From Acholeplasmataceae bacterium (GTDB taxonomy: Bacteria; Bacillota_I; Bacilli_A; Acholeplasmatales; Acholeplasmataceae): a stretch of 64,000 nt of DNA. Under the pieces are notes generated by a model. That model did not search any database, was not told the origin of the DNA, and worked only from the letters and a program-made list of their open reading frames with translations. The position numbers and the translations under genes are program-made. The DNA lies in assembly GCA_007692425.1 (NCBI GenBank), contig RECG01000015.1, forward strand, positions 1 through 64,000, read 5' to 3'. Shown piece by piece: positions 12,030 through 39,594 of the stretch; within the stretch, counting starts at the first letter, position 1; every line of letters begins with the position of its first letter.

Positions 12030-13841
12030 TTAACGCACCTCCGCGGTCATCGGGCTGGTGATGATGGCTTTGACCGGACATAGTTGCTTGCACGCACCAC
12101 AACAAATACAAAGATCCATATCCAACGTGTGGACCTGCTTGGGCCAGCCGGTGATCGCACCGACCGGACAATTGGTGGCGCACAAGGTGCAGCCGACACA
12201 TTGGTCGTTAATGGTGAATCGGGTCAGTTCACGGCAGACACCGGCCGTGCAGGTATGATGAAGGACGTGGTCAAGATACTCGTCTTTGAAATGCTTGAGC
12301 GTGGATAAAACAGGATTAGGCGCGGTCTGGCCGAGCCCACAGAGCGAGGTTTCCTTGATCATCATGCCAAGCGTCTCGAGTGTCTCGAGATCCTCAAGCG
12401 TGCCTTTGCCAGTACAGATTTTGTCGAGTATTTCCAGCATGCGTTTGGTGCCTTCCCGGCAGGGACCGCACTTGCCGCATGACTCTTCAACCGTGAATTC
12501 AAGGTAAAAACGGGCGACATCGACCATGCAGTTGTCTTCGTCCATGATGATCATGCCGCCTGAGCCCATCATGGAGCCCAGTGCTGTCAGGGTGTCGAAA
12601 TCAATCGGCGTCTCGAGGTCGGCCGCCGTGATGCATCCGCCCGAAGGCCCGCCGGTCTGGATGGCCTTGAGTTGTTTGCGGTTGGGGATGCCGCCACCGA
12701 TCTTGTAGACGACATCACGCAAGGTCGTACCCATCGGGATTTCGACCAGGCCGGTATTTTTGATCTTGCCGCCCAGGGCGAACACCTTGGTGCCGGGCGA
12801 ATGCTCGGTACCGATCGTCTTGAACCAGTCAGGCCCTTTGACGATGATGACAGGGATGTTGGCGAAAGTCTCGACGTTATTGACGTTGGTCGGTTTGCCC
12901 CAGAGACCTTTTTGGGCCGGGAAGGGCGGTTTGAGGCGTGGCATGCCGCGCAATCCTTCGATCGAGGCGATCAAGGCGGTTTCCTCACCACAGACAAACG
13001 CGCCTGCGCCGAGGCGGAGTTCGATGTCAAAGTCAAAGTCGGTGCCGAAGATCTTCGATCCCAGGAAGCCTCGTTCATGGGCCGTTTTGATTGCATGTTC
13101 GAGTCGTTCGACGGCGACCGGATATTCAGCCCGGACATAAATATAACCTTGGTTGGCGCCGATGGCATAGCCGCAGATGGCCATCGCCTCAAGAATGTTG
13201 TGCGGGTCGCCTTCGAGAATCGCCCGGTCCATGAAGGCGCCCGGGTCGCCCTCATCGGCGTTACAGATGACATACTTCTGATCGCTTTCGGCCTGACGGG
13301 CAAATGCCCATTTCCGGCCGGTCGGGAAGCCGCCGCCGCCACGACCGCGCAAACCGGACGCCGTGACCATGTTGACAATGTCATCAGGTGTATGGTTTTC
13401 AAGGGCCATGGCCAATGCCAGATAGCCTTCCCTGGCGATGTATTCGTCGATATCAAGCGGATTGATCACGCCGCAATTACGCAAGGCGATTCTTTTCTGG
13501 TTGCGAAAGACATCAAGGTGGCCAAAACCCCTGATACGCTTCTTCTGGATCGGGTCGTCGATGACAAGCCGGTCGACTTTCTTCTTGGCGACAAAGTGGG
13601 CGACCACGATGTCTTCGACATCTTCCGGTTTGACATGCTGATAATAGATTTCATCAGGAAAGATGGCGACAATCAGACCTTGTTCGCACAAACTCAAACA
13701 TCCTGTCACGTGCAAGGTCGCTTCATGATGGGCCTTGTGTTCACGTAACTTGGTTTCAAATTGGGTTTTGACCTTCAAGGCCTCTTTCTGCAGGCAGCGT
13801 TCGCCGCCGCAGATGATGATCTGGGTGCTTTCGAGCATCAT
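12030..13841 (-). CDS. hydB: NuoF-like flavoprotein HydB, long form
   Basis: A 603-residue NAD/FMN subunit of the second hydrogenase. Order of domains: thioredoxin-like [2Fe-2S] domain (Cys11, 16, 48, 52); NuoF core with GRGGGGFPTG, the CNADEGDPG motif and the SLBB region; [4Fe-4S] site ESCGKCGPCREG with SLCGLGQ; C-terminal double [4Fe-4S] ferredoxin domain (CVGCTLCATNCPVGAI and CICCGACKQLCPVKAI). This is the architecture of bifurcating HydB proteins. The ATG at 13841 overlaps the upstream stop by four bases after GGCGGTGAC; hydA begins directly after the stop. Confidence 0.96.
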   Translation of the reverse strand: MMLESTQIIICGGERCLQKEALKVKTQFETKLREHKAHHEATLHVTGCLSLCEQGLIVAIFPDEIYYQHVKPEDVEDIVVAHFVAKKKVDRLVIDDPIQKKRIRGFGHLDVFRNQKRIALRNCGVINPLDIDEYIAREGYLALAMALENHTPDDIVNMVTASGLRGRGGGGFPTGRKWAFARQAESDQKYVICNADEGDPGAFMDRAILEGDPHNILEAMAICGYAIGANQGYIYVRAEYPVAVERLEHAIKTAHERGFLGSKIFGTDFDFDIELRLGAGAFVCGEETALIASIEGLRGMPRLKPPFPAQKGLWGKPTNVNNVETFANIPVIIVKGPDWFKTIGTEHSPGTKVFALGGKIKNTGLVEIPMGTTLRDVVYKIGGGIPNRKQLKAIQTGGPSGGCITAADLETPIDFDTLTALGSMMGSGGMIIMDEDNCMVDVARFYLEFTVEESCGKCGPCREGTKRMLEILDKICTGKGTLEDLETLETLGMMIKETSLCGLGQTAPNPVLSTLKHFKDEYLDHVLHHTCTAGVCRELTRFTINDQCVGCTLCATNCPVGAITGWPKQVHTLDMDLCICCGACKQLCPVKAIITSPMTAEVR

Positions 13842-21773: not shown

Positions 21774-22781
21774 TCAGTCCAACGTGCCGAGACCTTTGCA
21801 CTCATATTGGAAAAGCAGTTGGTTGACAAGATCGATGTCATGATGGCCTTCTTCAATGGCCCAGCTGATGATGACATCGGACAAACGGCTGGGGGACAAG
21901 GCATAGCCGGCCCGGGCGATCAGGTCCTTGGTCTCGTCAAGATTGAGTTCAAGCGCGATGGCCAGGGCGATGGCGGTGCTTTTGCTGGGCTGATAAGTGG
22001 ACGTGTTTCGGATTTTGGAAAATAGTTTGCGGTCAAGGTTGGCCTTTTTGTATATGTCGATTTCGTTTTTGTCGCCGGTCCTGATCAAACGTAAAACCGT
22101 TTCGGCAAAATTCTCTTCGAGTTCGCTTTCCAGATCATCGAGGGAACGGACCGGATCGGGTTTGATCATGTTTGACAAGACGATGCGCTGGGTCTCTTTC
22201 CGACTGATGATAGAACGGTTTTTCAAGGTCCCATATCGGGCTTCGTCGTGTGTGTCGACATAATGGTCATCGATATATTGCCTGACGGCATCGGTCCATG
22301 TCTTGGACAAGGCAAATGATGCCTGGTCATAAACGACGAGCGACACCGTGATGTCATGCTTCTTGATGAAATCCCTGATGCTTTTGACGGCAATCGCCAA
22401 GGCCTGGTCTTTGGGAAAGCGGTAGACACCGGCTGAAATCAAAGGAAACGCCACGCTTTGACACGCATGGTCGACTGCTTGTTTCAAACATGCAAGGTAA
22501 CAGCGTCCTAGCAGGTTTGCTTCGTCATGACGCCCATCCTGCCAGACAGGACCGACCGTGTGGATGACATGGCGGGCTGGCAGGTTGAACCCTGGTGTCA
22601 GGAAGGCCTCGCCGATTTTGATGACACCAATCTTTTGGCGGGCTTCAAGCAACAAGGGTCCGGCGGCGGCATGAATCATGCCGTCGACACCGGCACCGAC
22701 GATGGGTTCGGGATCGGCAGAGTTGACAATGGCGTCGACATCAACGGTGGTGATGTCGGCTCGGATGATGTGCAGGGGCAT
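21774..22781 (-). CDS. Macro-domain protein with C-terminal helix-turn-helix-like domain
   Basis: A 335-residue protein. Residues 1-145 form a macro domain: IVNSADPEPIVGAGVDGMIHAAAG binds ADP-ribose in relatives and the LISAGVYRFP loop is conserved. The usual GGGVD is GAGVD. After a charged linker, residues about 240-335 (YKKANLDRKLFSKIR, then STAIALAIALELNLDETKDLIARAGYAL) look like a Cro/C1-type helical domain that is often appended to macro domains in Bacillota. ATG at 22781 follows AAAGGAG. Likely action is hydrolysis or sensing of ADP-ribose derivatives. Confidence 0.85.
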   Translation of the reverse strand: MPLHIIRADITTVDVDAIVNSADPEPIVGAGVDGMIHAAAGPLLLEARQKIGVIKIGEAFLTPGFNLPARHVIHTVGPVWQDGRHDEANLLGRCYLACLKQAVDHACQSVAFPLISAGVYRFPKDQALAIAVKSIRDFIKKHDITVSLVVYDQASFALSKTWTDAVRQYIDDHYVDTHDEARYGTLKNRSIISRKETQRIVLSNMIKPDPVRSLDDLESELEENFAETVLRLIRTGDKNEIDIYKKANLDRKLFSKIRNTSTYQPSKSTAIALAIALELNLDETKDLIARAGYALSPSRLSDVIISWAIEEGHHDIDLVNQLLFQYECKGLGTLD

Positions 22782-22863
22782 GGCGGGTCTCCTTTCAAAT
22801 GGCATGCGTGAAGCGAAAGATGCCATGATGATTCACTGATGACGGCAATCAGGTCGTTATCGT

Positions 22864-24883: not shown

Positions 24884-24912
24884 TTGACAATCCTCATGCC
24901 TTTTGATATACT
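24884..24912 (+). promoter_or_regulatory. Promoter of the six-module lipoprotein gene
   Basis: TTGACA (24884-24889), 17-base spacer, TATACT (24907-24912). A LacI-type operator begins six bases after the -10 box. Confidence 0.85.
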
Positions 24913-24917
24913 ACTTA

Positions 24918-24931
24918 TGTAAACGGTTTCA
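24918..24931. promoter_or_regulatory. LacI-type / cre-like operator 1
   Basis: TGTAAACGGTTTCA matches the catabolite-response consensus TGWAANCGNTNWCA at every fixed position and lies over the expected transcription start, so it would repress when bound. It could be read by CcpA, the local LacI-type regulator, or both. Confidence 0.75.
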
Positions 24932-24968: not shown

Positions 24969-24982
24969 TCGAAACGTTTCGA
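24969..24982. promoter_or_regulatory. LacI-type operator 2
   Basis: Perfect 14-base palindrome TCGAAACGTTTCGA in the 5' leader, 22 bases before the start codon. Its core GAAACGTTTC recurs at 45884-45899 in front of the transporter operon. Confidence 0.75.
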
Positions 24983-25003: not shown

Positions 25004-27529
25004 ATGAAACACATTACGAAACTTTTAAGTTTGTTGCTCGTGCTTGGTCTCGTTTTCGGATTGTTCGCTTGTGTTGAAAGAGAACCCGATGATGATGAGC
25101 CGACAACTGTGAACATGCTGGGCGACTGGATGGATGGTGGTGACGAGGTCTACACCTTGGATATCAACTCGGAAAACGCCCTCTCATTCACTTTTGACAA
25201 GCAAACCTATGCTTGGGCGGCTGTCGTCAAAGATTTCAGCGATAGCCTGGCCAGCATGAAGACGCTGATCATCACACTTCAAGGATCAGGCGTGCCTGTA
25301 CTGTTCAAGCTTGAATCTGAGGACGGCACCCTCGCCCGCGAGGTTCAGTTGAACGCGAATCCCACACTTGCCACTTATCAATGGGATTTCACGGGTGATG
25401 AGGATTTTCTGGCGTTAGCCGGCAAGATGTTGTTGTTTGCCGCGCCGAACCAGACAGGTGTCTCCGGCAATGTTTTGATTTCGAAGCTGGAGTTCACAAT
25501 GGCGGATGCGACCGGCAATGTCATCACGTCCGGTCATTCGGATTTTGTTGCGCCCGACCCCAATATTTATGATGGTGTCGCGGATTCATTCGGCGTCATC
25601 AACTGGTATGACGGTGGTGACAGTGTTTATGATGTCACCGAAGACAATGGTGTCTATGTCGTTGCTTATGACAAGACGCTTGAAACACATCATTGGTCAT
25701 TCATCCGGGCCGACCTGCAAGGCCCGTTCAGCAACTTCGCCAAACTTGAGTTTGTCATCACTGGCGAACTCGGACAAACCGCTTTGCTGAAGATTGAAGG
25801 ACCGGCAGGCTTCAAGGAATTGCCTGTCACCTTCGACGGGACCGAACAAACATTCGTCATGGATCTGATGACGTTGTTGCCGGCCTCGCTTGACGCACTT
25901 GATAAAATCGTGATTTTTGGCAGCCAAGGCACTACCGGTACAGGATCATTCACGCTGCATTCCGTCACATTCCTGCCGGCGCTGACTGACATTAATAGCG
26001 GATGGTATTCGCTTGATGAAGGCGTTTATGTGCCGACTGAAAATCTTGATGGCAGCGTTGATGTCGTATATGACAAGGCATCCGGAAACGAATGGTCTGT
26101 CCTCAAACTGGACATTGATGCAGCATGGTCAAGTTTAAATACATTGACCCTTGTCATCCAAGGTGAAGCCGGTCAGAACTTTATCATCAAGCCTAATGAT
26201 GACGGACTCCTTGAAAAGAACATCACGTTGACGGATGACCAACCATTGACGCTCACTTTTGAAGGGACTTTCACGTCGATCATCCTGTTCGCCATGCCGA
26301 ATGTCGCACCGGCAACCGGCACGTTCACGATTGTCTCGGCAACCCTTGATTACGTGCCAGCGGTCTTCGATCCCACCCTCGTTTATGATTTCAACAATGA
26401 ATGGTTTGAAAACGACCCCGGCACCTATGAGTTTGAGGTTCAACCAGATGGTTCGGTCAAGGTTTTCTATGCCCAATCCGGTTGGAATTACATGCGTCGT
26501 AACTTCGATATCAGTGAAGTCGCTGGTCTCAACACGATGACCATCACCCTTTCTGGTACGGTTGGCAAGCAAGTCTTGCTCAAGCCGAACGACAGTGGTG
26601 CCATGGAAACATGGGTCACCTTTGAAGATGCTGAGCCACTGACATTTGTTTTCAGAGCTGATACATTTGCCAATCTTTTGATTTTTGCCGAAGGCGGCAC
26701 CGCTGCGATCGGTGATTTCACCATCCATGAAGCCTACCTGAGTTATACTTATGACATCACCGCGTGGCAGGAAACAGATGTTTACGACATCACTGAAAAC
26801 GTGGATGGATCATTTACGGTCGATTACGACAAGGTTGACAATGGCTGGGCTTTCTTCCGTGTTGATTTCCCACCCATGGTTGACGGTTTGAACACATTGA
26901 CGATGGTCCTTTCCGGTTCAATCGGACAGACCATCCTCATCAAACCCAATGACCAAGGCGCACTTGAAGAGTGGGTCACATTCGATTCAACCGATCCATT
27001 GACATTGGTCTTCAAGGCCGATGCTTTCACGACCATCATCATGTTCGCTGAAGCAGGCACTGACACCGCAAGCGGCACTTTCACCATTCATGAGGCGACA
27101 TTGACGTATGTGCCGATTGTGTTTGATCCCGACAAGGTGCTTGACATCAATACGGGTCATATTTCAGGTGACGCCGGCGTTTACACATTTACGGTAGACG
27201 TGGATGGCGTTCTGGTCGAATACGACAAGATTGCCGGACAAGAATGGTCTTTCATGCGTATCAACATCGATCAGGGAGAGGCAGCCGGACTCAACACGTT
27301 GACGATTGTCTTGAAAGGCACGCCTGGTGAACAAGTCCTGATCAAGCCCAATGACATGGGCGCACTCGAACAATGGGTCACCTTTGTCGATGAAACCGAA
27401 ATCACGATTGTCATTGAGTATCACACCTTCTTATCCGTGTTGTTGTTTGCCGAAGGCGGCACCGCACCGGCTGATGGTGAGTTCACGATTGTTTCAGCCG
27501 AATTAAGTTATACCGAACCCGATGAATGA
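25004..27529 (+). CDS. Surface lipoprotein with six tandem beta-sandwich modules
   Basis: An 841-residue lipoprotein (lipobox LFAC, Cys23) without catalytic signatures. After a short acidic linker come six modules of about 125-130 residues (about 36-168, 197-325, 328-452, 460-583, 585-707, 714-838). The later four share GLNTLTxxLxGxxGxxxLIKPND and AEGGTAxxGxFTIH cores; the first two are more diverged. The all-beta pattern and tandem array look like carbohydrate-binding modules on a cell-surface stalk. Promoter and two LacI-type operators tie it to the glycan operon that converges on it. ATG at 25004 follows AAAGGAGG. I infer glycan capture; I do not recognise a named family. Confidence 0.85.
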   Translation: MKHITKLLSLLLVLGLVFGLFACVEREPDDDEPTTVNMLGDWMDGGDEVYTLDINSENALSFTFDKQTYAWAAVVKDFSDSLASMKTLIITLQGSGVPVLFKLESEDGTLAREVQLNANPTLATYQWDFTGDEDFLALAGKMLLFAAPNQTGVSGNVLISKLEFTMADATGNVITSGHSDFVAPDPNIYDGVADSFGVINWYDGGDSVYDVTEDNGVYVVAYDKTLETHHWSFIRADLQGPFSNFAKLEFVITGELGQTALLKIEGPAGFKELPVTFDGTEQTFVMDLMTLLPASLDALDKIVIFGSQGTTGTGSFTLHSVTFLPALTDINSGWYSLDEGVYVPTENLDGSVDVVYDKASGNEWSVLKLDIDAAWSSLNTLTLVIQGEAGQNFIIKPNDDGLLEKNITLTDDQPLTLTFEGTFTSIILFAMPNVAPATGTFTIVSATLDYVPAVFDPTLVYDFNNEWFENDPGTYEFEVQPDGSVKVFYAQSGWNYMRRNFDISEVAGLNTMTITLSGTVGKQVLLKPNDSGAMETWVTFEDAEPLTFVFRADTFANLLIFAEGGTAAIGDFTIHEAYLSYTYDITAWQETDVYDITENVDGSFTVDYDKVDNGWAFFRVDFPPMVDGLNTLTMVLSGSIGQTILIKPNDQGALEEWVTFDSTDPLTLVFKADAFTTIIMFAEAGTDTASGTFTIHEATLTYVPIVFDPDKVLDINTGHISGDAGVYTFTVDVDGVLVEYDKIAGQEWSFMRINIDQGEAAGLNTLTIVLKGTPGEQVLIKPNDMGALEQWVTFVDETEITIVIEYHTFLSVLLFAEGGTAPADGEFTIVSAELSYTEPDE

Positions 27530-27547
27530 TCATTAACCTGATGATTC

Positions 27548-27577
27548 AAAAAAGCGATTCTCCGGAATCGCTTTTTT
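27548..27577 (+). terminator. Bidirectional terminator between lipoprotein gene and glycan operon
   Basis: Thirteen-base perfect stem AAAAAAGCGATTC/GAATCGCTTTTTT with loop TCCG; A and T runs on both sides make it work for both convergent units. Confidence 0.93.
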
Positions 27578-27643: not shown

Positions 27644-29785
27644 CTATTTGATGCCAACGTCTTTCAACACAAATCGTCTGGACAACGTCGTGTTTGACCC
27701 GCCCCCCACGAACACGTCAAATGTGCCAGGCTCGATCTGAGGCTTGCCGTGCTGATCAAACGCAGACAAGTCTTTTGCCTTGAGTTCAAAAACGATTGAC
27801 TTGGTCTCAGCAGGGTCAAACCATACCTTTTGAAATCCTTTGAGTTCCTTGACCGGTCTGACCGGCAATGAGACAAGGTCCCTGATGTAGAGCTGGATGA
27901 CCTCATGACCTGCTTGTTGACTGTCGTTGGTGACCGTGACTGTGATGGTCAGCGTCTCGTTGATTGCCATGACTTCCTTATCCAACCGCATGTCCTCATA
28001 ATTGAAACGGGCGTAAGACAAGCCGTGTCCGAACGACAATTGCGGATCGTTGGAGACATCAAGATACTTGGAAACATATTCGTTGCGTTCATCACGATAG
28101 GGTCTGCCCGTATTGAGATGGTTGTAATAGATGGGAATCTGACCTTCATTCTGCGGAAACGTCATCGGCAGTCTGCCACTTGGGTTGAACGTGCCGTTGA
28201 CAAGGTCGACAATGGCGCTGGCCGCACGGCTGCCGAGAAACCAACAAAGCATCACTGCATCAGCTTTTAAGATCTCTTTCAGCACCAGGGGACGTCCGCA
28301 AAAAAGCAGGACGACCACGGGTTTGCCGGTCGCTTTGGCCATCTTGATCAACGTCTCCTGGCCATCCGGGAGATCCAGTCTGGTGCGGGAACGCGCCTCA
28401 CCACTTTGACGGGCTTGCTCACCGGCACAGACGATGATGACATCGGCCTGCTTGAGCGTGTCGATATCTTGCCGGTCATAATCAGTTGCCTGATTTCCGG
28501 TTTTGGCCATCACGATGTCATGGCCTTTTCTGGCAAAGGCATGATGCAAGGTCTCGTTGAGACGATGGTCGCCGTGCCAGGACCAATTGCCATTGGTCGA
28601 AGATTCGTTGACATAAGGTCCGATCAAGGCAATCGACCGCGTCTTGTCAAGCGGCAGGACTTGATGGTCGTTTTTCAACAATACCGTACATTCCCTGGCA
28701 ATGCGTTCACTTGTGGCCAGATGGTCGGGATGCCTGACCCGTTGTGTCGCCTTGAGAGCGTCGGCGCCTTTGAACGGATTGTCGAACAAGCCAAGTTTTT
28801 CTTTGAGGGTGAGAATCCGTAAGACCGCCTCATCGAGCAAGGCCAACGGGATGACACCCTCGTCAATCAAGGTCTTCAAATAGCGAAAATAGGCTGTCGA
28901 CGCCATTTCAATGTCAACCCCTGCCTCGATGGCAAGTCTCGCTACGTCTTTCAGTTCTGAGGCGACACCATGCGTGATGACCTGCTGCAGGGCATCATAA
29001 TCCGTGATGACCACACCGTCGAAGCCCATCTGCCCACGCAAGATATCACGTAAAAGACCCTGATGAACCGTCGCGGGAATGCCGTTGAACGTGTTAAAAG
29101 CTGTCATGACAAGGTGTGCACCGGCCTTGATGCCGGCTTGATAAGGCGGTGCATAGTGGTTGTAAAACGTATGCATCGACATGTCGACCGTGTTATAGTC
29201 CCTGCCTGCCTCAGGCGCCCCATAAGCGGCGAAATGCTTGACGCAGGCAGCCAGGTTGCCTTCCTTGCCGATGCCATCGTGCTGGAAACCTTCGACACTG
29301 GCGCGGCTGAAACATGAGGCCAGGTAGGCATCCTCGCCAAAGCCTTCCATCACACGGCCCCAGCGGGGGTCACGGCTGACATCGACCATGGGGGCGAACG
29401 TCACGTGAATCCCCGCGGTCTGCGCTTCCAAAGCCGCGATGCGTGCCGCCTTTTTGGCAAGATCGGGATGAAACGATGAGGCCAGGGCGATGGGGATGGG
29501 AAAAATGGTCTCATAACCATGGATGACATCCGCCATGAACATGAGGGGAATCTTGTGTCTGCTTCTTTGCAGGTATTTCTTTTGGACGGCGATCATCTCC
29601 TTGGCATCATGAATGCCAAGGACCGATCCGGCTAAAAATATGTCTGCTTCGCTTAAATCAAGCGCTCTGAGCGCGCCTGCGACTTCGACTTTGAGGTCCT
29701 TGATGAAAAAGAATGGTGCCAGCTGGAGAAGCTGGCCCGCTTTTTCTTCGATGGTCAGTGTTGACAATAGCGACTGAATGTTCAT
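27644..29785 (-). CDS. GH3 beta-glucosidase, cytoplasmic
   Basis: A 713-residue glycoside hydrolase family 3 enzyme that releases glucose from the non-reducing end of beta-glucosides. Domains: TIM-barrel (about 1-320) with KHFAAYGAPEAGRDYN and the nucleophile motif VITDYDAL, an alpha/beta sandwich (about 380-560), and a C-terminal fibronectin-III-like domain (LSFGHGLSYARFNYE onward). No signal peptide, so it acts on imported oligosaccharides. It is the last gene of the operon, 33 bases after the LacI gene, with AAAGGAAGG before the ATG at 29785. Confidence 0.95.
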   Translation of the reverse strand: MNIQSLLSTLTIEEKAGQLLQLAPFFFIKDLKVEVAGALRALDLSEADIFLAGSVLGIHDAKEMIAVQKKYLQRSRHKIPLMFMADVIHGYETIFPIPIALASSFHPDLAKKAARIAALEAQTAGIHVTFAPMVDVSRDPRWGRVMEGFGEDAYLASCFSRASVEGFQHDGIGKEGNLAACVKHFAAYGAPEAGRDYNTVDMSMHTFYNHYAPPYQAGIKAGAHLVMTAFNTFNGIPATVHQGLLRDILRGQMGFDGVVITDYDALQQVITHGVASELKDVARLAIEAGVDIEMASTAYFRYLKTLIDEGVIPLALLDEAVLRILTLKEKLGLFDNPFKGADALKATQRVRHPDHLATSERIARECTVLLKNDHQVLPLDKTRSIALIGPYVNESSTNGNWSWHGDHRLNETLHHAFARKGHDIVMAKTGNQATDYDRQDIDTLKQADVIIVCAGEQARQSGEARSRTRLDLPDGQETLIKMAKATGKPVVVLLFCGRPLVLKEILKADAVMLCWFLGSRAASAIVDLVNGTFNPSGRLPMTFPQNEGQIPIYYNHLNTGRPYRDERNEYVSKYLDVSNDPQLSFGHGLSYARFNYEDMRLDKEVMAINETLTITVTVTNDSQQAGHEVIQLYIRDLVSLPVRPVKELKGFQKVWFDPAETKSIVFELKAKDLSAFDQHGKPQIEPGTFDVFVGGGSNTTLSRRFVLKDVGIK

Positions 29786-29818: not shown

Positions 29819-30781
29819 TCATTCGCAGGATTCACGCCAATAGATCTTGCCTTCGGGATTGTTGATCTTGATCGTCTCGCCCTGTTGAATGCGGTTGACC
29901 ATCACTTCCGCGACATGTTCGCCCCAGCGGCGGTGGTCAATGCCGATGGTGGTCAGTTTCGGTGTGATATAAAGTCCCATCTGGATGTTGTCGAACCCGG
30001 CGATGGCGAGATCCTCGGGAACACGGATGCCGGCTTCCTGGAATGCCGTGATCAAACCGATGGCCGATTCATCGTTGGCACAAAAGATAAAACGCGGCTT
30101 GTTTTTCGCCTCGCACAATGTCTGGCCGATGCGGTAACCGCCGCTGATGGTAAAATCACCCTCCAAGTATTGATGATGCTTGATGCCGTGCGCGTCGAGT
30201 GCTGCTTTGAATCCCATGTAGCGCATGTTGTTGTTGTAGGAATCCTTCGGACCGCTCAAATAGGCAAAATCGCGATACCCCTTGGCGATGACGTCGCTGA
30301 TGAACATGTGGACCAGACCGGCGTTATCGATGACACTGGCAATGATATGGTCGCCGGTGAGATAACGGTCGAGCACGCAGACGGGTGAACCCTTTTTCGC
30401 ATAACGGATCAAGGTGTCATTCGGCAGGTTGCTGTCAAAAATGATCGCGCCGTCGACCTGGCGTTCCTGAAGCAGGATGGTCGATGATTTGCCACTGCTG
30501 ACGATGATGTTGTAATGATGTTCCAAAAGTTTCATATGAATGCCCTCAAGGACATCACTGAAAATCGGACCGGCAAACCCATAAATGAAAACGCCGATAT
30601 TACCAGTCCGGTTGGTCTTGAGGTGCCTGGCGCTGAATTGGGGAAAATAGTCGAGCGCTTTCGCGGCTTCCAAAATCCTGCTTTTCGTGTCCGGGTGGAC
30701 GTTGGGTTGGTTGTTGAGGGCGTATGAGGCCGTTGAAATAGAGACACCGGCCTTTTTCGCCACATCTTTGATGGTTGCCAT
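29819..30781 (-). CDS. LacI-family transcriptional regulator
   Basis: A 320-residue LacI/GalR regulator: helix-turn-helix at the N terminus (ATIKDVAKKAGVSISTASYALNN), hinge helix, and a sugar-binding core. ATG at 30781 follows AAGGAGGAGTG; the in-frame ATG at 30817 lies inside the upstream gene. Encoded within the glycan operon four bases after the cytoplasmic hydrolase. It is the natural candidate for the GAAACGTTTC operators at 24969 and 45884, with a glucan oligosaccharide as inducer (inferred). Confidence 0.93.
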   Translation of the reverse strand: MATIKDVAKKAGVSISTASYALNNQPNVHPDTKSRILEAAKALDYFPQFSARHLKTNRTGNIGVFIYGFAGPIFSDVLEGIHMKLLEHHYNIIVSSGKSSTILLQERQVDGAIIFDSNLPNDTLIRYAKKGSPVCVLDRYLTGDHIIASVIDNAGLVHMFISDVIAKGYRDFAYLSGPKDSYNNNMRYMGFKAALDAHGIKHHQYLEGDFTISGGYRIGQTLCEAKNKPRFIFCANDESAIGLITAFQEAGIRVPEDLAIAGFDNIQMGLYITPKLTTIGIDHRRWGEHVAEVMVNRIQQGETIKINNPEGKIYWRESCE

Positions 30782-30785
30782 CCAA

Positions 30786-32018
30786 TCACTCCTCCTTGTT
30801 TGTCCGGGTCCAGCCAAGCGTCGCCATTCCTTTTTGGATGAGCGGATGCGCCATGTATGCCCGGTAGACGTCCTTGGAAAGGACGGCGTTGACCATCAAC
30901 ATTTCGAGACCCTTGTCGATGGCGATGATCTTGTTGCTAATCCAATGGCCGTCTTCGAAATTGAAGGCGTCCATGAACCCATACTGCTTGTAAAGCCCCG
31001 GTATGCCTGCCATGTCTTCAATGGTCGTCAGTGCCAGTTCAGGCAGAAAAGGTAACGCACCGACCATGCTGAACGGTGCGACGGTGCCATCGGTCTCAAA
31101 GGTGTGATGATGGTTGGGAAGACCGCCAAAAACCCGGTAACCCCTGGGGGTGTCAGATGCGTTGAAACCGAAACGGCAAGGACTGAAGGTCCGATAATCA
31201 TCCATCAGGTCCACGGAAAGTGCCTGGTGGGCAAGAATGGCCTTGCGGGCGTTGTCAAACCATGAGATGCCGTCGGCATCCAGCCAATCGGCAAGGTCAA
31301 GCCAGGCCAGAGGGAATTGATAGACGAAGAGGGCGTTACCCGGACTATAAAGGTATGTGATGTCCTTGTACGAACCTTTTTGGCGGGTAAAGCCGTCATA
31401 AAGTGCTTTTGCATCCTGTTGATAAGGACCGGCGCCGATCATCACATAAATCATCAACTGTTCGGCAAACATGTCCCATTGATGAATAAAACCAGGCTCA
31501 TCGGTGACATATGCACCGCCCTTGTCAGGGTTATAAGACATGTAGAGCATCTTCCGGCCTTGCATGTCGTGGAAAAGCCGTTGCCATTCCACCCTGGCGA
31601 AGAGCCGGTCCGCCAGATCATGGATCACATCATTATTGAAATAGGATGCGGCGGTGATGACGCCGTTGAGACACAAGGCGGTGTCGATTGTCGAGTATTC
31701 GCACATGCGATGCCGTGTTGCACGCTCGATATCCAAATAATGGGCGAAAAAACCATAGCGGTGCGGTACACGTTCAAAGAGCGTCTCCAATGTGTGCCGG
31801 GTGATGAGAAGGGCGGCATCATCCGAGATGTAGCCTTGACTGGCACCGATGACGAGACTGCTGAGCATGAATCCGGTCGCGGCGATCGAGGCGACCGTCG
31901 GTCTGGCGGTACTGTCGGCCGTCAGGCCATAACCGGGACTTCCCGGATTGAGATTGGTATGGTCTTGGAAAAAACGGAAAGCACGGTGTTGCATGTCAAT
32001 CAGACGGTTGTTAGGCAT
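30786..32018 (-). CDS. Glucoamylase-like (PF10091/GH144-type) hydrolase, cytoplasmic
   Basis: A 410-residue protein homologous to the next gene upstream and to PF10091 proteins, an alpha/alpha-barrel fold. Characterised members in GH144 are endo-beta-1,2-glucanases. Shared blocks: the N-terminal FRFFQDHTNLNPGSPGYGLTADS, TVASIAATGFMLSSL, YSTIDTALCLNG, and the C-terminal IAIDKGLEMLMVNA. There is no signal peptide, so this copy would act on imported oligosaccharides. ATG at 32018 follows AAGGAG. Exact specificity cannot be read from sequence. Confidence 0.82.
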   Translation of the reverse strand: MPNNRLIDMQHRAFRFFQDHTNLNPGSPGYGLTADSTARPTVASIAATGFMLSSLVIGASQGYISDDAALLITRHTLETLFERVPHRYGFFAHYLDIERATRHRMCEYSTIDTALCLNGVITAASYFNNDVIHDLADRLFARVEWQRLFHDMQGRKMLYMSYNPDKGGAYVTDEPGFIHQWDMFAEQLMIYVMIGAGPYQQDAKALYDGFTRQKGSYKDITYLYSPGNALFVYQFPLAWLDLADWLDADGISWFDNARKAILAHQALSVDLMDDYRTFSPCRFGFNASDTPRGYRVFGGLPNHHHTFETDGTVAPFSMVGALPFLPELALTTIEDMAGIPGLYKQYGFMDAFNFEDGHWISNKIIAIDKGLEMLMVNAVLSKDVYRAYMAHPLIQKGMATLGWTRTNKEE

Positions 32019-32110: not shown

Positions 32111-33478
32111 TTATCTGGGCTGGAAACCGAGGAGTTCCATACCACGTTGGATTTCGGGAATATCCATGAATACCTGCCAGATGAAGCCGGATCGGTAATT
32201 CTCGATCATCAACATCGTGATGCCCTTGTCAATGCCGATCACATCCGGTGAGTAATAGGGCACCTTTCCGACCAACAGGGGATCGTGATGGCCTTCATGG
32301 AGACCCAGGTTGTAAGCAGCCTTGAACCCATAGGTTCCCCATAAGTCCGGAAACGATTTGAAATGATAGGCGGCCCGGATCGCTTCTTCTTCCAGGTGGA
32401 TGACCGAAGCCAGGGCGGCGTATGGCGCGACCGTGCCGTCCATGTTGTCTGTCCGGTCTTTAGGCGGTGTGCCATAAGCCTTGTAGCCATTGGGGCCGTC
32501 GCTGGCGGAAACACCCCAGGAATTGGCATTGAGGGAACGATAGCGGAAAGAGACATCGATGGCATGGTTGTATGCCGCCTGGGTGGCGCGACGGGCATTC
32601 TCATGCCAGTCGAGTCCGTCACGGTCGAGCACCTGTCTGAAATCAAGGTAAGCATGTGAATACTGGTGGGTGAACAGCTCACCGCCAAATGTATAATAAA
32701 ACGGGTCGACGTTCAGGTCAGGATTGTTTTGGCTGATATAGGGTGCGAAGCGTCTGCTCATATCGCTTTTTAACACACGATAACTGGCATCGCCGGTCGG
32801 ATGGGTGTTCGAACCGGCACCCAGCACATACATCATCAGTTGCTCGGCAAAACCATCCCAGGCACCGGTGTGTTGCTGGGTTTCAGGACTATAACTCATG
32901 TAATAGCGGTGACTGACCGGATGCATGTACCAGTTCCAATCGATGCCGTCATAAATGTCAATGGCCTTGGCATATGCTTCGCCACCGAAGTAACGACCGG
33001 CGAACAAGGCACCGGTGACAAGTAAAGCCGTGTCAATGACGGAAACCTCGCTGTTCCAGACGCGTTCGGTTGTGTGCATGCTGATGAAATGGAAATAGAA
33101 ACCATGATGGCGCGTCATGCCCAGCAAGGTATCAAGCGTGCCCAAGGCGCGCTCAAGGCCTTCGTCATGGGTGATCCAGCCGTTTTCAATCCCGATGGGA
33201 ATGGCGGCAAGCGCAAAACCGACCGAAGCGATGCTGGCCACACCGGATGCACCCGGATAACGGTCACGGGCCATGCCGAAGCCACTGCTTTCAGGATCTG
33301 AGTTGCTGGTTTCCCAAAAAAACAGGAAGGCACGGTACTGCTCTTCAAGCAAGAGACCGTCAATCTGACGGGCCTCACGCTCATAAATACCTGTTGGTGG
33401 CAGCGTGTCAGGTTGACAGGCCACCAGCATGAAGACGGATAATACGATTAAGATGATCAGGGTAATTTTGTTTTTCAT
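32111..33478 (-). CDS. Secreted glucoamylase-like (PF10091/GH144-type) lipoprotein
   Basis: A 455-residue lipoprotein (lipobox LVAC, Cys21) with a full PF10091 catalytic domain: FLFFWETSNSDPESSGFGMARDR, VASIASVGFALAAIPIG, VSVIDTALLVTGAL, DGTVAPYAALASV and the C-terminal GIDKGITMLMIENYRSGFIW. GH144 members are endo-beta-1,2-glucanases. Anchored outside the cell, it would cut polymer into fragments for the two ABC importers. ATG at 33478 follows CAGGAGAG, four bases after the permease gene. Confidence 0.87.
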   Translation of the reverse strand: MKNKITLIILIVLSVFMLVACQPDTLPPTGIYEREARQIDGLLLEEQYRAFLFFWETSNSDPESSGFGMARDRYPGASGVASIASVGFALAAIPIGIENGWITHDEGLERALGTLDTLLGMTRHHGFYFHFISMHTTERVWNSEVSVIDTALLVTGALFAGRYFGGEAYAKAIDIYDGIDWNWYMHPVSHRYYMSYSPETQQHTGAWDGFAEQLMMYVLGAGSNTHPTGDASYRVLKSDMSRRFAPYISQNNPDLNVDPFYYTFGGELFTHQYSHAYLDFRQVLDRDGLDWHENARRATQAAYNHAIDVSFRYRSLNANSWGVSASDGPNGYKAYGTPPKDRTDNMDGTVAPYAALASVIHLEEEAIRAAYHFKSFPDLWGTYGFKAAYNLGLHEGHHDPLLVGKVPYYSPDVIGIDKGITMLMIENYRSGFIWQVFMDIPEIQRGMELLGFQPR

Positions 33479-33482
33479 GATG

Positions 33483-34415
33483 TCACTCTCCTGTAATCCC
33501 GGCTCTGTCGATACCTTCGATAAAGAGCCGTTGTAAGATAAAATACATGATCAGCATCGGCAGGATGATGAGCAGCGTCGCCGCCATCCGGATGCCTTCA
33601 TTGATCATCGCCGCCTGTCCGGGGAATAAATCCTGGTAAGCGGAAACAAAGATGAGCAGCCTCAACTGCAAGGTCTGGACCGAAGTCCCCAAAAAGAGGC
33701 TTGAGAGATACGTTTCATTCCAATACCAGACGAAACTGAACAAGAAACTGGTGACAAACGACGGAATCGACAACGGAATGGCAATCTTGAAGTAAATATA
33801 AAGGTGATTGGCGCCGTCCATCTGGGCTGCCTCATCGAGCGATTTTGGAATCATTTTATAAAACTGGTAGAAAATCAGGATGAAGATGGCCGAGTTCAAG
33901 CCTTGTCCGAATGAGGCCGGGATGATGATGGCCCAGATCGAATTGAGCAAACCCAGGTTGTTGAAAAGGACGAAACGGGGAATCATCACGATTTGCGGCG
34001 GGATGATATACGTGATCAAGACGATGGCGAACAAGGTCTTTTTCAACGGAAAACGGAAACGGGCGAACCCATAACCGATGAACGAGGCGACAATCGTCTG
34101 CATGACCGCCGGCAACAAGGTGACCGACAAACTCGTCATCAAGGTCGGAAAATACCTGAGCACCAGGAACGACTGCCGGAAATTCTCGGTATAAAACTTG
34201 GTGGGCAGATAAAAGACCGTCGGACTGAGCAGGTCGCCAAGATCCTTGAAACTCACCGTCAACATGTGCAAGAGCGGATAGACATAGACAAAACCGATGC
34301 CAATCAGCAAGGTGTAGATCAAGGTCTTGAATATCAAGCCGTCATTAAAGCGAAGGCCCCAGAACAGACGTCTGGTCTTGTTGATGAAAGGCTTGGAAAA
34401 CAGTTTATTTTGCAT
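33483..34415 (-). CDS. Carbohydrate ABC permease, MalG/UgpE type (set B)
   Basis: A 310-residue inner permease of the second sugar importer, six membrane segments with the EAA loop DEAAQMDGANHLYIYFKIAIPL. Starts at ATG 34415 after GAGGTAAGG, overlapping the partner permease by 11 bases. The longer in-frame start at 34460 lies wholly inside the partner gene. Pairs with 34405-35301. Confidence 0.93.
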   Translation of the reverse strand: MQNKLFSKPFINKTRRLFWGLRFNDGLIFKTLIYTLLIGIGFVYVYPLLHMLTVSFKDLGDLLSPTVFYLPTKFYTENFRQSFLVLRYFPTLMTSLSVTLLPAVMQTIVASFIGYGFARFRFPLKKTLFAIVLITYIIPPQIVMIPRFVLFNNLGLLNSIWAIIIPASFGQGLNSAIFILIFYQFYKMIPKSLDEAAQMDGANHLYIYFKIAIPLSIPSFVTSFLFSFVWYWNETYLSSLFLGTSVQTLQLRLLIFVSAYQDLFPGQAAMINEGIRMAATLLIILPMLIMYFILQRLFIEGIDRAGITGE

Positions 34416-35301
34416 GAACCTTACCTCGCGTTTCCTTGTATTCACGCTTGGGGAAGGCAATCAGGAGGAAGGCCGCCGCCAACAATAGGGCGACGAGCAA
34501 AAAGTAGATCCATGCCATCGCGGAAGCATAGCCATAACCACCTTGGACATCAAACATCGTGCGTCTGATCTGGTTGATGATCGGATTGTTGCCAAACGTC
34601 GATAGCATGACAATCGTGTAGACCGTGCTGATCAGAATGATGTTCTTCAATGATGGCAACGTGATTTTCCAAAACGTCTCCCATGGTGACGCCCCGTCAA
34701 CGAGCGCAGCTTCGTAAATTTCCTTGTTGATCTTTTGCAAGCCGGCCAGGAACAAGACGATCTGGACACCGGAAAACCATAATACCATGATCATTTCTGT
34801 AAACAACGCGGTCAACGGTTCAGCCAGAAGCGGTGGGAATATCTCGCGAATCAACTCGAGCATGCCATAGCGTTCGATCAATGGGACGGTGCCGGCACCT
34901 TGGGCGATCAGCTCATTGATGACCGGACCGCTGGCGATGATGACCGGCAGGAAAAACACCGACCGGAAAAAACCGCGGAACCTGATTTTCTGGTTGAGCA
35001 TCATGGCGATGATCATCGACACGATGATGATGATCGGCACATAGAGGATGATTTGTTGGATGAACGTGATGAGCATGTCGATATAGATGACATCGGTGGT
35101 CAACACCCTGACATACTGGGCGAACCCGACCGGTTGAAGGACGATGCCCTGCGCACCGGTGATTGAGACCTGGCTCATGCTGAACACGAGCGAACGCAAA
35201 AGCGGAATCATGGTCAGGATGACAAAACCGATGATCCAGATACCGATGAAGGCATAACCGGATAAGGCTTCCTTATGACGAGATTTCAGATGGATCTTCA
35301 T
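34405..35301 (-). CDS. Carbohydrate ABC permease, MalF/UgpA type (set B)
   Basis: A 298-residue sugar permease, six membrane segments, EAA loop YEAALVDGASPWETFWKITLP. ATG at 35301 shares its A with the TGA stop of the DUF5696 gene and follows GGAGGGG. Together with 33483-34415 it forms one transmembrane pair. Confidence 0.93.
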   Translation of the reverse strand: MKIHLKSRHKEALSGYAFIGIWIIGFVILTMIPLLRSLVFSMSQVSITGAQGIVLQPVGFAQYVRVLTTDVIYIDMLITFIQQIILYVPIIIIVSMIIAMMLNQKIRFRGFFRSVFFLPVIIASGPVINELIAQGAGTVPLIERYGMLELIREIFPPLLAEPLTALFTEMIMVLWFSGVQIVLFLAGLQKINKEIYEAALVDGASPWETFWKITLPSLKNIILISTVYTIVMLSTFGNNPIINQIRRTMFDVQGGYGYASAMAWIYFLLVALLLAAAFLLIAFPKREYKETRGKVHAK

Positions 35302-37601
35302 CAAACCCCTCCGATCGCATAGTCGTTGGACGCAATGTCCAGCAAACCGCTATAATCATGTCTCGAATAGTTGATGCCAATGATGACACCGTTGCTGTAA
35401 GTGATCAGGTTGACACCAGGCGCGACCACTTCACGACTGACAACATGGGCGCCGATGACATGTCTGAGTGCTTCATTGACATAAGCATACTGGCGCTTGA
35501 TTTCGGGTGCCCACACCTCATACTGCGATGTATAAATGTCCGCTGACCCGGTTTCAAGCAACAAATACGCGCTGAAATCGGTCAGATAATAGGCAGGGTA
35601 AAGGTTGTAGTCAATCAAACGCAACAGCTCGTTCTGGGTATTGGAAAAGAAATTGGCAGGACGTGAGAACAATGGTTTTTGACCCGCCAGCACATAGCTG
35701 AGGAACGGCACGGTGTCACTGAATTTGGCCTGTTGGCTTGAATACATGACAAAAGTAAAGTGATGATCAGCCCCAAATAAATAATCGAAGGGTTCGTACA
35801 CGGCCGTCTGGTCAAACAGTTCCAGCATGCGTTGATAGGTCTTGATCGCATCTGAGCGGGAGAGCGGTTGATTGCCATGACTTGAATACAGCAACTGGCC
35901 GATGGTCTCAAAAGCGACATGGCGGATGCCATAAGACGCCATCTGCGACCGCATGTCCGACACTCTCTGATAAGATGCTTCGGGATGCATCAGGTACCAT
36001 GTGCCGGACACATCCTCGCCCTCATTGTTCAAAAGGTTCCGGCGGGTGGAAAGATCATAAGGTGAATAACCCCGGCTGCCGACATAGGCGCGCGATGGTT
36101 CGACATGATAATAGATTGTCACATCACGGGCGTTCAAGGCGTTGAAGGCGGCTTTCGAGCCCAGTGCACGCAAGGCGGGCATTTCGTTTAAACTCGACCC
36201 TGTCAACCCGCTTCTACCATAACCGCGATAGGAGACGACCAACTGTGTGATGCCATCAGCCTGGAGGTCGTCAATCATCAAGCCCAGTGCTTGGACATCG
36301 GTCATGACAAAGGTGTTGCGGCCGAACAAGGCACGCTTGTTCTCAGCGGCAAGCACATCCAGATGAACGGGAATGTCGTCTGATTCATAAGAGGTGCCAT
36401 CCAAAATGCCCTGGTTGATCAGGTGGCTGCGATAAGCGTTGGCCAGTCCCACGTAATTGGCGTCTTCACCTTGAAGCAAGACAAGACGTAAATCGAGATC
36501 AACCGGATTAAGTTCGGTTTGCAGCCTGGTGATGGCATTGGTCTGGCTTTGGTTCAATGGTTGACGATACACCGACCGATATTGGAAACTGGTGAACGTC
36601 CAGAAAAAGTCGGTCGTGATGTCAGCCGGATAAACCGTCAAGGACGCATAGGGTGCCCCGCCTTGGACAATGCCAAGCAAGGCGTTTTGGTCGATGCCGT
36701 GGACGAGACCGTACATGTTGGCCTGCAACATGTGCTCGTCTTTGACATAACCGGTGGTGGTGATGATGCTTCTGGCGATGCCGGGATCGAAGCCATAGAA
36801 CGGTTTTTCATAGATGTTGTTGAAATGATCGCGTTGGTCAAAACGCATCAATGCACCAATCCCGTCAGGAACAAGGACATAGCCCGGTGTGCGGTCACGT
36901 TTGACCGCACCGAAAAAGGGATAGGGCGACAACCTGGCAAGTTTGGCGTTCGGTCCGTCAATGATGCTGTCCTGCGGAATGGTGATGGCAAGACCATCAC
37001 TTTCCAAGGTGACGACCAAGGTCAGACGAATGCCTGAAGCACCGAAAAACAGTTGCGCGGAGAAGCCATTTTCAAGCACGGTCACTGCCATGTTGCTGAG
37101 CGGTGACAAGAACAGGCTTTCCTCCCGGAACTGTGGATTGGTGTCCACACTGGTATAGTAACCGATGAACACCGGTGAACGGACACGGTTGCGCCATGTC
37201 TGGCTGCGGAACCCGCGGTCACCTTCGTCGTAAAGGTCGGGATAAAGCGGTTCGCCCTCGTCATCCAGCTGGTCATAGTCCATGAAGAAATTGGATCCCC
37301 AGACGTAACCGGTGCGCAGATCGATGACGCGCAAGGACAATTCGGCCATATTGACAAACAATGCAAATGTATCATTTTCAGCCAGTTTGTCAAAATCATC
37401 GGTAATGGTCACATAAGGATTTTGTGCCACCCTGAGATCGCTTTCCATTTGTGTATAACGATTCGACAAAAGGGCACTTCGCGCGACTGCTTCTTCGGTG
37501 ATCAGCAAACGATCAAGTACATCCGGTGCAGCTGAGACCTGACCAAGGGTGATCCATACCAGGGCCAATACCACGAGCATGATCCGTTTAACGACCCACA
37601 C
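35301..37601 (-). CDS. DUF5696 protein, secreted, possible TIM-barrel glycosidase
   Basis: A 766-residue exported protein. A hydrophobic N-terminal segment ends near VSAAPD (signal peptide or anchor). Residues about 60-300 fit the DUF5696 opening (AENDTFALFVNMAELSLRVIDLRTGYVW), a beta-sandwich that resembles glycosidase N-terminal domains. Residues about 400-700 alternate strands and helices as in a TIM barrel (LGLMIDDLQADGITQLVVSYRGYG; VTIYYHVEPSRAY; MASYGIRHVAFETIG). No characterised relative is known to me. GTG at 37601, nine bases after AGGAGG, is preferred to TTG at 37607 or ATG at 37574. Its fixed place among glucan genes suggests a role in polymer handling. Confidence 0.75.
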   Translation of the reverse strand: MWVVKRIMLVVLALVWITLGQVSAAPDVLDRLLITEEAVARSALLSNRYTQMESDLRVAQNPYVTITDDFDKLAENDTFALFVNMAELSLRVIDLRTGYVWGSNFFMDYDQLDDEGEPLYPDLYDEGDRGFRSQTWRNRVRSPVFIGYYTSVDTNPQFREESLFLSPLSNMAVTVLENGFSAQLFFGASGIRLTLVVTLESDGLAITIPQDSIIDGPNAKLARLSPYPFFGAVKRDRTPGYVLVPDGIGALMRFDQRDHFNNIYEKPFYGFDPGIARSIITTTGYVKDEHMLQANMYGLVHGIDQNALLGIVQGGAPYASLTVYPADITTDFFWTFTSFQYRSVYRQPLNQSQTNAITRLQTELNPVDLDLRLVLLQGEDANYVGLANAYRSHLINQGILDGTSYESDDIPVHLDVLAAENKRALFGRNTFVMTDVQALGLMIDDLQADGITQLVVSYRGYGRSGLTGSSLNEMPALRALGSKAAFNALNARDVTIYYHVEPSRAYVGSRGYSPYDLSTRRNLLNNEGEDVSGTWYLMHPEASYQRVSDMRSQMASYGIRHVAFETIGQLLYSSHGNQPLSRSDAIKTYQRMLELFDQTAVYEPFDYLFGADHHFTFVMYSSQQAKFSDTVPFLSYVLAGQKPLFSRPANFFSNTQNELLRLIDYNLYPAYYLTDFSAYLLLETGSADIYTSQYEVWAPEIKRQYAYVNEALRHVIGAHVVSREVVAPGVNLITYSNGVIIGINYSRHDYSGLLDIASNDYAIGGV

Positions 37602-39594
37602 GGGCAATCACCTCCTTGAACAGGCCACCAAAGTAATCAAAGACCTGGAAAAGCAACAAATAGACGACAAAGATCAACAAGATCATCAGCACCACGGTGA
37701 AAAACGTCAACAAGATGTTCTTGACCAGTTCGCGCAGGTTGTAACCATGAACTTCTTTGAGCATGATGATGACATAAAGCGCGGTCCAGCCAAACATGAA
37801 GGTGTGAAGAAACTGATAGATGAAAATCTCATCATAGGTCAGACCATAGGAGATCACGACGACCGGCACGGCCATGAACATGAACGGGGCCAAGGCATAG
37901 GCACAGCCGACATAGACATCTTTGAACCAGCCCTCACCTTCATTGATCGTGCTGATCAGGTAATTGGCGAAGACAAACAACATGATGAGTCCGATGATGA
38001 TGCCGGCATGACGGATGATGGAAAAGGTCTCGCTATCGACCGTACGGAAGATGAAGGCCGGTCCGACCGCGATCAATACGGCCAATGCCGTCGCGATGCC
38101 ATACAGGATGGTGGCGGACGCATACGAGCCTTGCTTGCGGTATCTTATATTGTATAACGTGTCCAAAGGATGTCTGAGCATATGATAGACATGACTCAGT
38201 TCAAACATCAATCTCACCTCGAGCAATCGCTTCTTGGTGCGTCTGAGCGGGGCGTAAATCTGATATTTGAGATCGACAAACTTGAGTGTCTTTGTGCCCG
38301 CCAGCAACAAAATCAATCCTATAAGGACCGTTCCGAGATGATTTTGAAGGTATGTGTAGCGCAGTTGCCAGAACGCATTCGAGTAACCGGTCTTGTCATG
38401 GGCCAGTTGATAATAATGGCGTGCTTCATCGTAGTGGCCAAGCCTGTAATTGGCTTGTCCGATCGCACTGTTGGCCAGCGCGAACATCTCGTTCAGGGCA
38501 AGCACATCTTCCCATTGTGACACATCATAAATGCCTTCTTTGAATGACAGCAAGCCTTGATGGACGGTCCTGGTGAAGGTCGAAGTATGGAAGGCCTGGA
38601 TGGTTCCCGTCGTCCGGTCGAGCACATAGATGTGGTGATTGGAGTCGACGGCGATGTCAACTGGATTGACAAACAAACCCAAGCGCCGGTTGCCGGTGCT
38701 GTCAAGACCGCCGAATTCGAAAATCATGTTGCCGAAGGAATCGTATTCCGTGATCATGCCTTGGCTTGAAAGGGTGATGATGTTACCGATCTGGTTGATG
38801 GCGACAGACACCAGGTCTGGTGCCGAATATTCGTTGTCAAGGGTGTCGATTGATGCGATGTTGAAACGCTTGAGACGTTTGAAATCGGTCGGACTGACCG
38901 TATAGACCATGCCTTGCTCGTCAATCGTGAGATTGGAGGCGGATGTAGGAATGTTGAGCGCAAACTCGACATTAAACAGATTGGCAAGCCGTTGGAGCCA
39001 GGTCATGCCAGTGATGTTCGTTCCGAAAAAGCCGATGAACTCACCGGTATGGTTGAGCTGGATGATGCCGGAGGTCGATCCTTCGCCGACAATATACATG
39101 TTGCCTCGTTTACCGACGGCGATCTTGCGGGGCACATAGGGCGATGTGCGACCGAAAATCGGCTCGGTCGGACGATCGAACGTGGCTAAGAGATCACCGT
39201 TTTCGTCAAAGACCAAGACCAACCTGGCCTGGGGGTCGGCGACATAAAGATGATTATCTTCATTGACAAACACACCAGTCGGTGCCAACATCTGCGCATG
39301 GGTGACTTCGAGCAAGACATGGCCTTCAAGGTCCAGTTTGATGATACGCTGGTTGCCGGTATCGGCCACATAGATGACATCATCCTTGATCATCAGAGCC
39401 TCCGGCGCTGAAAGGTCGATGTCCAGACTGACAAAACCGGCCGGATCATAAGCCGTCTGGGTTTTGATTCTTCTGCCTTTCGGTCCGATGGTGTAGGTTT
39501 CATAGGGCACGGACGGATCATCCGAACTGGCCTTGGTCTCGAGGGGGATGACCAAGAGCAACAGGACCAGCACGAAGATGATGAGCTTTTTCAT
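37588..39594 (-). CDS. NHL beta-propeller / Yip1-domain membrane protein
   Basis: A 668-residue protein. A signal peptide (about 1-22, ...ETKASS) is followed by an NHL-type propeller of about five or six blades (about 45-345; repeats such as PEALMIKDDVIYVADTGNQRIIKLD and DIAVDSNHHIYVLDRTTGTIQAF), a short TPR-like helical pair (about 375-410: AIGQANYRLGHYDEARHYYQLA), one membrane segment (about 425), and a Yip1-like domain with five segments (about 490-655). So an extracellular propeller is joined to a membrane domain. Similar proteins sit in sugar ABC operons of Bacillota; role unknown. ATG at 39594 follows AAGGAGG. Confidence 0.82.
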   Translation of the reverse strand: MKKLIIFVLVLLLLVIPLETKASSDDPSVPYETYTIGPKGRRIKTQTAYDPAGFVSLDIDLSAPEALMIKDDVIYVADTGNQRIIKLDLEGHVLLEVTHAQMLAPTGVFVNEDNHLYVADPQARLVLVFDENGDLLATFDRPTEPIFGRTSPYVPRKIAVGKRGNMYIVGEGSTSGIIQLNHTGEFIGFFGTNITGMTWLQRLANLFNVEFALNIPTSASNLTIDEQGMVYTVSPTDFKRLKRFNIASIDTLDNEYSAPDLVSVAINQIGNIITLSSQGMITEYDSFGNMIFEFGGLDSTGNRRLGLFVNPVDIAVDSNHHIYVLDRTTGTIQAFHTSTFTRTVHQGLLSFKEGIYDVSQWEDVLALNEMFALANSAIGQANYRLGHYDEARHYYQLAHDKTGYSNAFWQLRYTYLQNHLGTVLIGLILLLAGTKTLKFVDLKYQIYAPLRRTKKRLLEVRLMFELSHVYHMLRHPLDTLYNIRYRKQGSYASATILYGIATALAVLIAVGPAFIFRTVDSETFSIIRHAGIIIGLIMLFVFANYLISTINEGEGWFKDVYVGCAYALAPFMFMAVPVVVISYGLTYDEIFIYQFLHTFMFGWTALYVIIMLKEVHGYNLRELVKNILLTFFTVVLMILLIFVVYLLLFQVFDYFGGLFKEVIARVGR

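Follow-up and report, generated by a model that had tools for sequence, protein, structure and literature searches.

β-1,2-Glucans contribute to bacterial symbiosis and pathogenesis. To our knowledge, few proteins recognize β-1,2-glucan without cutting it, and the only one that we found, CBM92, prefers β-1,6-glucan. Elsewhere, SusE and SusF of Bacteroides thetaiotaomicron are lipoproteins that are regulated together with their glycan locus. SusE carries two X25 modules and SusF three, and these modules bind maltooligosaccharides (PMC9112005). CBM92 binds sophorose and glucans (PMC11039641), and both CBM29 and the CBM29-like insert of MtGlu5 are β-jelly rolls with an aromatic binding platform (PMC9063844). 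XcSGL is a GH144 enzyme (PMC12102758). Two reports describe a β-1,2-glucan cluster of Listeria innocua (lin1839-1841) that encodes the 1,2-β-oligoglucan phosphorylase SOGP, a GH3 protein, and a Sop-binding ABC subunit (PMC12369401, PMC3960220). Sop3-5 are bound by Lin1841 (PMC12369401).

We analyzed a 64,000-nucleotide stretch from an Acholeplasmataceae bacterium (contig RECG01000015.1, positions 1 to 64,000), referred to here as the window. A gene for a six-module lipoprotein lies there beside genes that resemble those of the L. innocua cluster.

Architecture of the module protein

The open reading frame begins with ATG directly downstream of a ribosome site (AAAGGAGG) and encodes 841 amino acids. 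Its features are as follows.

25004–27529, + strand: six-module lipoprotein, predicted to be surface displayed (ORF, translation, and module division)
25004–25072, + strand: lipoprotein signal peptide with lipobox LFA-C23 (sequence)
25109–25594, + strand: module 1 and linker, amino acids 36 to 197, of the N1 position-specific clade (family profile and tree)
25595–25981, + strand: module 2, amino acids 198 to 326, grouping with third-position modules of other species (family profile and tree)
25982–26380, + strand: module 3, amino acids 327 to 459, KPND core type (module division and tree)
26381–26749, + strand: module 4, amino acids 460 to 582, KPND core type (module division and tree)
26750–27136, + strand: module 5, amino acids 583 to 711, KPND core type, modeled as a CBM-like β-sandwich with pLDDT 96 (module division and model)
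27137–27526, + strand: module 6, amino acids 712 to 841, KPND core type (module division and tree)

The six modules are about 125 amino acids long, and all of them matched the family profile far beyond chance (84 to 128 bits; E values from 1e-26 to 9e-45 when the whole genome was searched). Together with the lipobox and the all-β model of module 5, these scores confirmed a preliminary description of the protein as six homologous all-β modules in tandem behind a lipobox. Its observation of a KPND core in modules 3 to 6 also held: these modules contain (L/I)(I/L)KPND, while module 1 contains FKLESED and module 2 contains LKIEGPA. Modules 1 and 2 do differ in sequence, as had been noted, but their divergence is not random drift, and in the tree they fall into position-specific clades together with N-terminal modules from other species. 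Positions W8, Y28, G58, K67, E75, F101, and G111 (numbered as in module 5) are nearly invariant among modules and could be structural residues; W35 is 89% conserved.

No family match to the 841-amino-acid protein was obtained in Pfam (E ≤ 10), in NCBIfam (E ≤ 1), or in the PDB sequence set. Because the Pfam and NCBIfam searches were empty at these thresholds, no catalytic domain was recognized, in agreement with the earlier statement that a catalytic motif is absent. Among the module proteins scanned, none had a detectable catalytic domain.

Fold and family membership

The model of module 5, for which 124 natural modules were used, was all β, with a mean pLDDT of 96. When it was compared with solved structures, CBM β-sandwiches predominated (TM scores of 0.5 to 0.67 at 10 to 20% identity), including the CBM29-like MtGlu5 insert (TM score of 0.67) and CBM29, 11, 6, 4, 51, 61, and 86. 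A minority of the matches were proteins that do not bind sugars, such as complex I assembly factors, and for this reason the fold alone does not prove sugar binding. The model of module 1 was poor (pLDDT 65) because it was made from a single sequence; its top fold match was also a CBM, to which little weight is given.

A profile of 124 modules had zero matches among PDB sequences, CBM chains included, and thus no sequence relation to CBM29 was found. Modules did not match the CBM_4_9 profile (PF02018) at E ≤ 10, and a descent of the modules from CBM_4_9 was not supported by profile comparison (hhalign probability of only 8.6%). Because sequence matches were absent from Pfam, NCBIfam, and the PDB set while CBM folds matched at 10 to 20% identity, the module is, on the predicted structure, a family new by sequence with a fold already known. 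The suspicion that the family was unrecognized, and possibly a new CBM, therefore stood up to both profile searches and structure prediction, with binding itself predicted; a known non-carbohydrate fold was not found, as the fold neighbors were mostly CBMs. The modules agree with the general definition of a CBM in being discrete, non-catalytic domains with a CBM-type fold. They depart from it in belonging to a stand-alone lipoprotein encoded beside the enzymes of the locus rather than to the polypeptide of a carbohydrate-active enzyme.

The neighboring glucan locus

Downstream of the module gene, an operon on the opposite strand runs from 45819 down to 27644 and encodes binding proteins, ABC permeases, GH144, LacI, and GH3 proteins.

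44350–45819, − strand: solute-binding lipoprotein (PF01547; PDB 22hh, E = 1.3e-63)
41386–44325, − strand: 979-amino-acid protein with a C-terminal solute-binding domain related to Lin1841 (best PDB match 5ysb, remote, E = 6.4e-20)
39605–41393, − strand: first ABC permease pair (PF00528)
37588–39594, − strand: NHL-repeat and Yip1 membrane protein (Pfam)
35301–37607, − strand: DUF5696 protein (PF18952)
33483–35304, − strand: second ABC permease pair (PF00528)
32111–33478, − strand: GH144-like lipoprotein, candidate surface endo-β-1,2-glucanase (PF10091; PDB 8xul, E = 4.6e-57; 5gzh, E = 3.2e-33)
30786–32018, − strand: GH144-like enzyme lacking a signal peptide, presumed cytosolic (PF10091; PDB 8xul, E = 1.3e-29)
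29819–30817, − strand: LacI-family regulator (Pfam)
27644–29785, − strand: GH3 protein, candidate sophorooligosaccharide β-glucosidase by inferred specificity (PF00933 and PF01915)

The top PDB match of both GH144-like proteins, 8xul, is XcSGL. SOGP is absent from the window and is encoded on contig C25 of the same genome. Because three independent homologies converge (a GH144-type glucanase, the Lin1841-type Sop-binding ABC subunit, and SOGP on the other contig), the locus is, by homology, a β-1,2-glucan utilization system.

Several further features of the window were observed. Besides its signal peptide, the 979-amino-acid solute-binding protein has an N-terminal extension of about 540 residues that matches no Pfam family, and the protein is conserved in both β-1,2 and GH161 systems (38 to 42% identity over the protein). 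The DUF5696 and NHL-repeat/Yip1 proteins (35301–39594, − strand) recur in such glucan importer operons of many genera. Other genes, all on the − strand, encode a GH16 lipoprotein, possibly a laminarinase, that carries an Ig-like surface domain (54112–55332); a macro domain joined to a long C-terminal region that matches no Pfam family (21774–22826); iron-only hydrogenase and NuoF-like subunits (10275–13841), which point to hydrogen production linked to NADH; and a protein with an RsgI-like anti-sigma domain (48348–49229).

A common candidate operator of the module gene and importer operon

24884–24912, + strand: σ70-type promoter TTGACA-17-TATACT with TG ahead of the −10 element (11 of 12 consensus bases; consensus match only)
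24918–24931, + strand: cre-like box TGTAAACGGTTTCA, candidate CcpA-type site (one of two consensus matches in 64 kb)
24969–24982, no strand assigned: 14-bp palindromic operator TCGAAACGTTTCGA, candidate site of the LacI regulator of the locus (chance expectation of 0.00)
27548–27577, no strand assigned: hairpin terminator separating the module gene from the convergent GH3 gene (−16.6 kcal/mol, z = −3.87)
45885–45898, no strand assigned: second operator TCGAAACGTTTCAA, ahead of the importer operon (chance expectation in the window of 0.00)

Control of the module gene by the operator of the glycan locus had been proposed from the sequence, and the two sites support this, as does conservation: exact copies of TCGAAACGTTTCGA were found ahead of the module gene in 16 of the 26 related loci, some of which come from close species. 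The exact operator was absent from all three examined loci in which the module gene follows the GH144 lipoprotein gene. Of 16 loci examined, 9 have a cre-like box of the same kind upstream of the module gene. The obvious candidate for a regulator acting at TCGAAACGTTTCGA is the LacI protein encoded in the locus. Three sites with at most one mismatch occur in the whole genome, and only two of them are plausible operators, one at the module gene and one at the importer operon. The third (C3:14066) was rejected as a regulatory site because it lies within a coding region, a 1,489-amino-acid ORF read as DNA polymerase III PolC.

Relatives of the module protein and their genomic contexts

No related locus was recovered with the whole protein as the query, and 31 named relatives were recovered with an 11-module alignment; they include Peloplasma aerotolerans, Paracholeplasma vituli, and “Candidatus Izimaplasma” HR2. 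Peloplasma has been reported as cell wall-less (PMC11122141), and we infer a wall-less state for the organism of the window from its family. Orthologues within the family Acholeplasmataceae occur in three genera and have 6 to 10 modules. In a search of the class, modules were detected in 39 of 395 genomes, and every module match in a sample of the phylum fell within the same class. Across these searches, the modules were confined to Acholeplasmataceae, Izemoplasmatales, and relatives.

Gene order links the module protein to the same enzymes in other genomes. The module gene adjoins SOGP, GH3, LacI, and GH144 genes in two genomes (G077 and G083) and SOGP, LacI, and GH144 genes in another (G426). 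A colinear cluster in G041 begins with the module protein, two binding proteins, permeases, NHL/Yip1, DUF5696, and permeases and continues with the GH144 lipoprotein, cytosolic GH144, LacI, GH3, and SOGP, with two unassigned genes in between. The module gene lies directly downstream of the GH144 lipoprotein gene in five genomes (G428, G228, G254, G361, and G329) and directly ahead of a solute-binding protein gene in many loci. SOGP was present in all 14 family genomes with strong orthologues and in 17 of 74 others (Fisher P = 4e-8, with kinship ignored); inside the best-sampled genus, the association had a P value of 0.07.

A second surface-glycan cluster was observed in the genome of the window (L058; contig C19, 1092–10492, − strand). 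It encodes lipoproteins with Big_2, a CBM27 match, one remote module copy, a binding protein, and LacI.

Module clades and the linkage of the neighboring enzymes

Sister module proteins adjoin genes for GH161 (β-1,3-oligoglucan phosphorylase) and the same type of importer; in several of these proteins, the chain also contains CBM_4_9 and Ig-like domains. We assigned the phosphorylase of these loci to GH161 by its match to PDB 9qqk (E = 1.5e-221); an alternative assignment to GH149, from an NCBIfam match far below the cutoff, was rejected.

In a tree of 261 modules, those from GH161 loci formed a separate clade with a support of 1.0. When loci were labeled by their enzymes, 5 label changes were counted on the tree, compared with a mean of 29 in shuffles. 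The exceptions were β-1,3-clade modules in GH144-locus proteins (G040 and G329) and the reverse in G039. Within the β-1,2 group, modules at the first, second, and third positions each fall into a clade of their own, and the KPND modules are the variable, expanding remainder of the 6 to 10. The lineage of the window appears to be without the second module type, its module 2 grouping with third-position modules. Residues that differ between the groups are found around W35 and at the KPND/KIEG stretch.

The hybrid proteins (L043, 8931–12254; L127, 8898–11678; and L044, 6483–8852) comprise GH144-locus proteins that contain β-1,3-clade modules and a GH161-locus protein that contains one KPND module. 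Their composition suggests module swapping.

Proposed function and alternatives

The 841-amino-acid protein is probably a non-catalytic, surface glycan-binding lipoprotein of the β-1,2-glucan utilization system of a wall-less member of the Acholeplasmataceae. Predicted fold, conserved synteny with β-1,2-glucan enzymes and the importer, and the conserved operator support the capture of a polymer, which had been put forward earlier in general terms; homologies in the locus now name that polymer as β-1,2-glucan, with binding predicted. In the presence of β-1,2-glucan or sophorooligosaccharides, the LacI repressor would leave TCGAAACGTTTCGA, a conserved site with which its pairing is presumed, and the module gene and importer operon would be switched on together. 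The module protein would be exported and lipid anchored at C23 of the observed lipobox, presumably on the surface, where its six predicted CBM-fold modules may form a short, possibly rigid chain off the membrane. With no cell wall, this chain would face the medium directly, and modules that are individually weak could jointly hold linear or cyclic β-1,2-glucan with avidity. The GH144 lipoprotein would then cut the held polymer, and the freed oligosaccharides would pass through the Lin1841-like binding protein and the ABC importer to cytosolic GH144, GH3, and SOGP.

It is also conceivable, though unlikely, that the modules serve as a spacer or docking scaffold that, without binding glycan, keeps the solute-binding proteins or the GH144 lipoprotein together or at a distance from the membrane. 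The same importer and enzymes accompany the module gene from locus to locus, the range of 6 to 10 modules is as in a length-setting stalk, and a spacer role has been proposed for a domain of Bacteroidota glycan loci, DUF1735 (PMC11216935). Against this stand the mostly sugar-binding fold matches and the homologues that share chains with CBM_4_9 domains, and a mere spacer would not need modules that differ by locus substrate. A still less probable reading is that of a general β-glucan or adhesion protein, whose modules bind several linkages or surfaces (particles or the envelopes of other cells) and whose expression alone is controlled by the β-1,2 locus. Mixed-clade proteins in G040, G329, and G039 would fit it, a lipoprotein on a cell that has no wall would readily serve as an adhesin, and a single CBM92 module accepts both β-1,6- and β-1,2-linked glucose (PMC11039641). 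The reading is countered by co-occurrence and coregulation with β-1,2-glucan enzymes and by the separate clade of modules from β-1,3-glucan loci.

The position of the module gene directly ahead of solute-binding protein genes might indicate an unrecognized enzyme or a coreceptor that passes oligosaccharides to the solute-binding protein. We regard this as very improbable: Pfam and NCBIfam gave no catalytic domain, the modules were modeled as compact β-sandwiches, and the locus already has two solute-binding proteins. Taking β-1,2-glucan capture as the preferred function, we tentatively suggest, at somewhat less than an even chance, that the modules are a new CBM family in which one clade recognizes β-1,2-glucan and its sister clade β-1,3-glucan, that the protein is the first tandem β-1,2-glucan capture stalk, and that the choice of linkage was changed by a few positions (W-xx-R/KPND versus WW-NNNAQ/KIEGG). 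We know of no earlier example of such a stalk. A module family present across the lineage, with clades that track the linkage on which the neighboring enzymes act, would offer a natural system for studying how a β-sandwich chooses between β-1,2 and β-1,3 glucose chains.

Comparison with known systems

The best structural match of the module, the MtGlu5 insert (PDB 7vt4/7vt8), aligns over the module with about 15% identity, whereas the profile search of the PDB gave no sequence match. CBM_4_9 belongs to the same fold class and adjoins sister modules in GH161-locus proteins but differs in sequence, as described above. CBM92, unlike the module, is a β-trefoil.

Relatives of the L. innocua SOGP, GH3, and ABC subunit all occur in the genome of the window, whose system adds GH144 enzymes and the DUF5696 and NHL-Yip1 proteins. 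A multi-module binding lipoprotein is not described for that cluster in the accessible portions of the two reports (PMC12369401, PMC3960220).

SusE and SusF, and Sas20 of Ruminococcus bromii, resemble the module protein, itself predicted to be surface displayed, as non-catalytic surface proteins with at least two tandem β-sandwich modules of about 120 amino acids. Like SusE and SusF, it is a lipoprotein with tandem non-catalytic modules that is encoded, and judging from the common operator regulated, with a glycan-use locus. No sequence relation to SusE and SusF was found (no SusE/F or X25 match in Pfam), and X25 binds starch in a TonB/SusCD system, whereas the module protein has 6 to 10 modules and accompanies an ABC importer and β-1,2-glucan enzymes in a wall-less cell. 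It would thus work by analogy with a SusE/SusF-type surface glycan-binding protein while standing outside that family and every tested CBM family. The parallel suggests that free-living wall-less bacteria keep a surface capture like that of gut Bacteroides.
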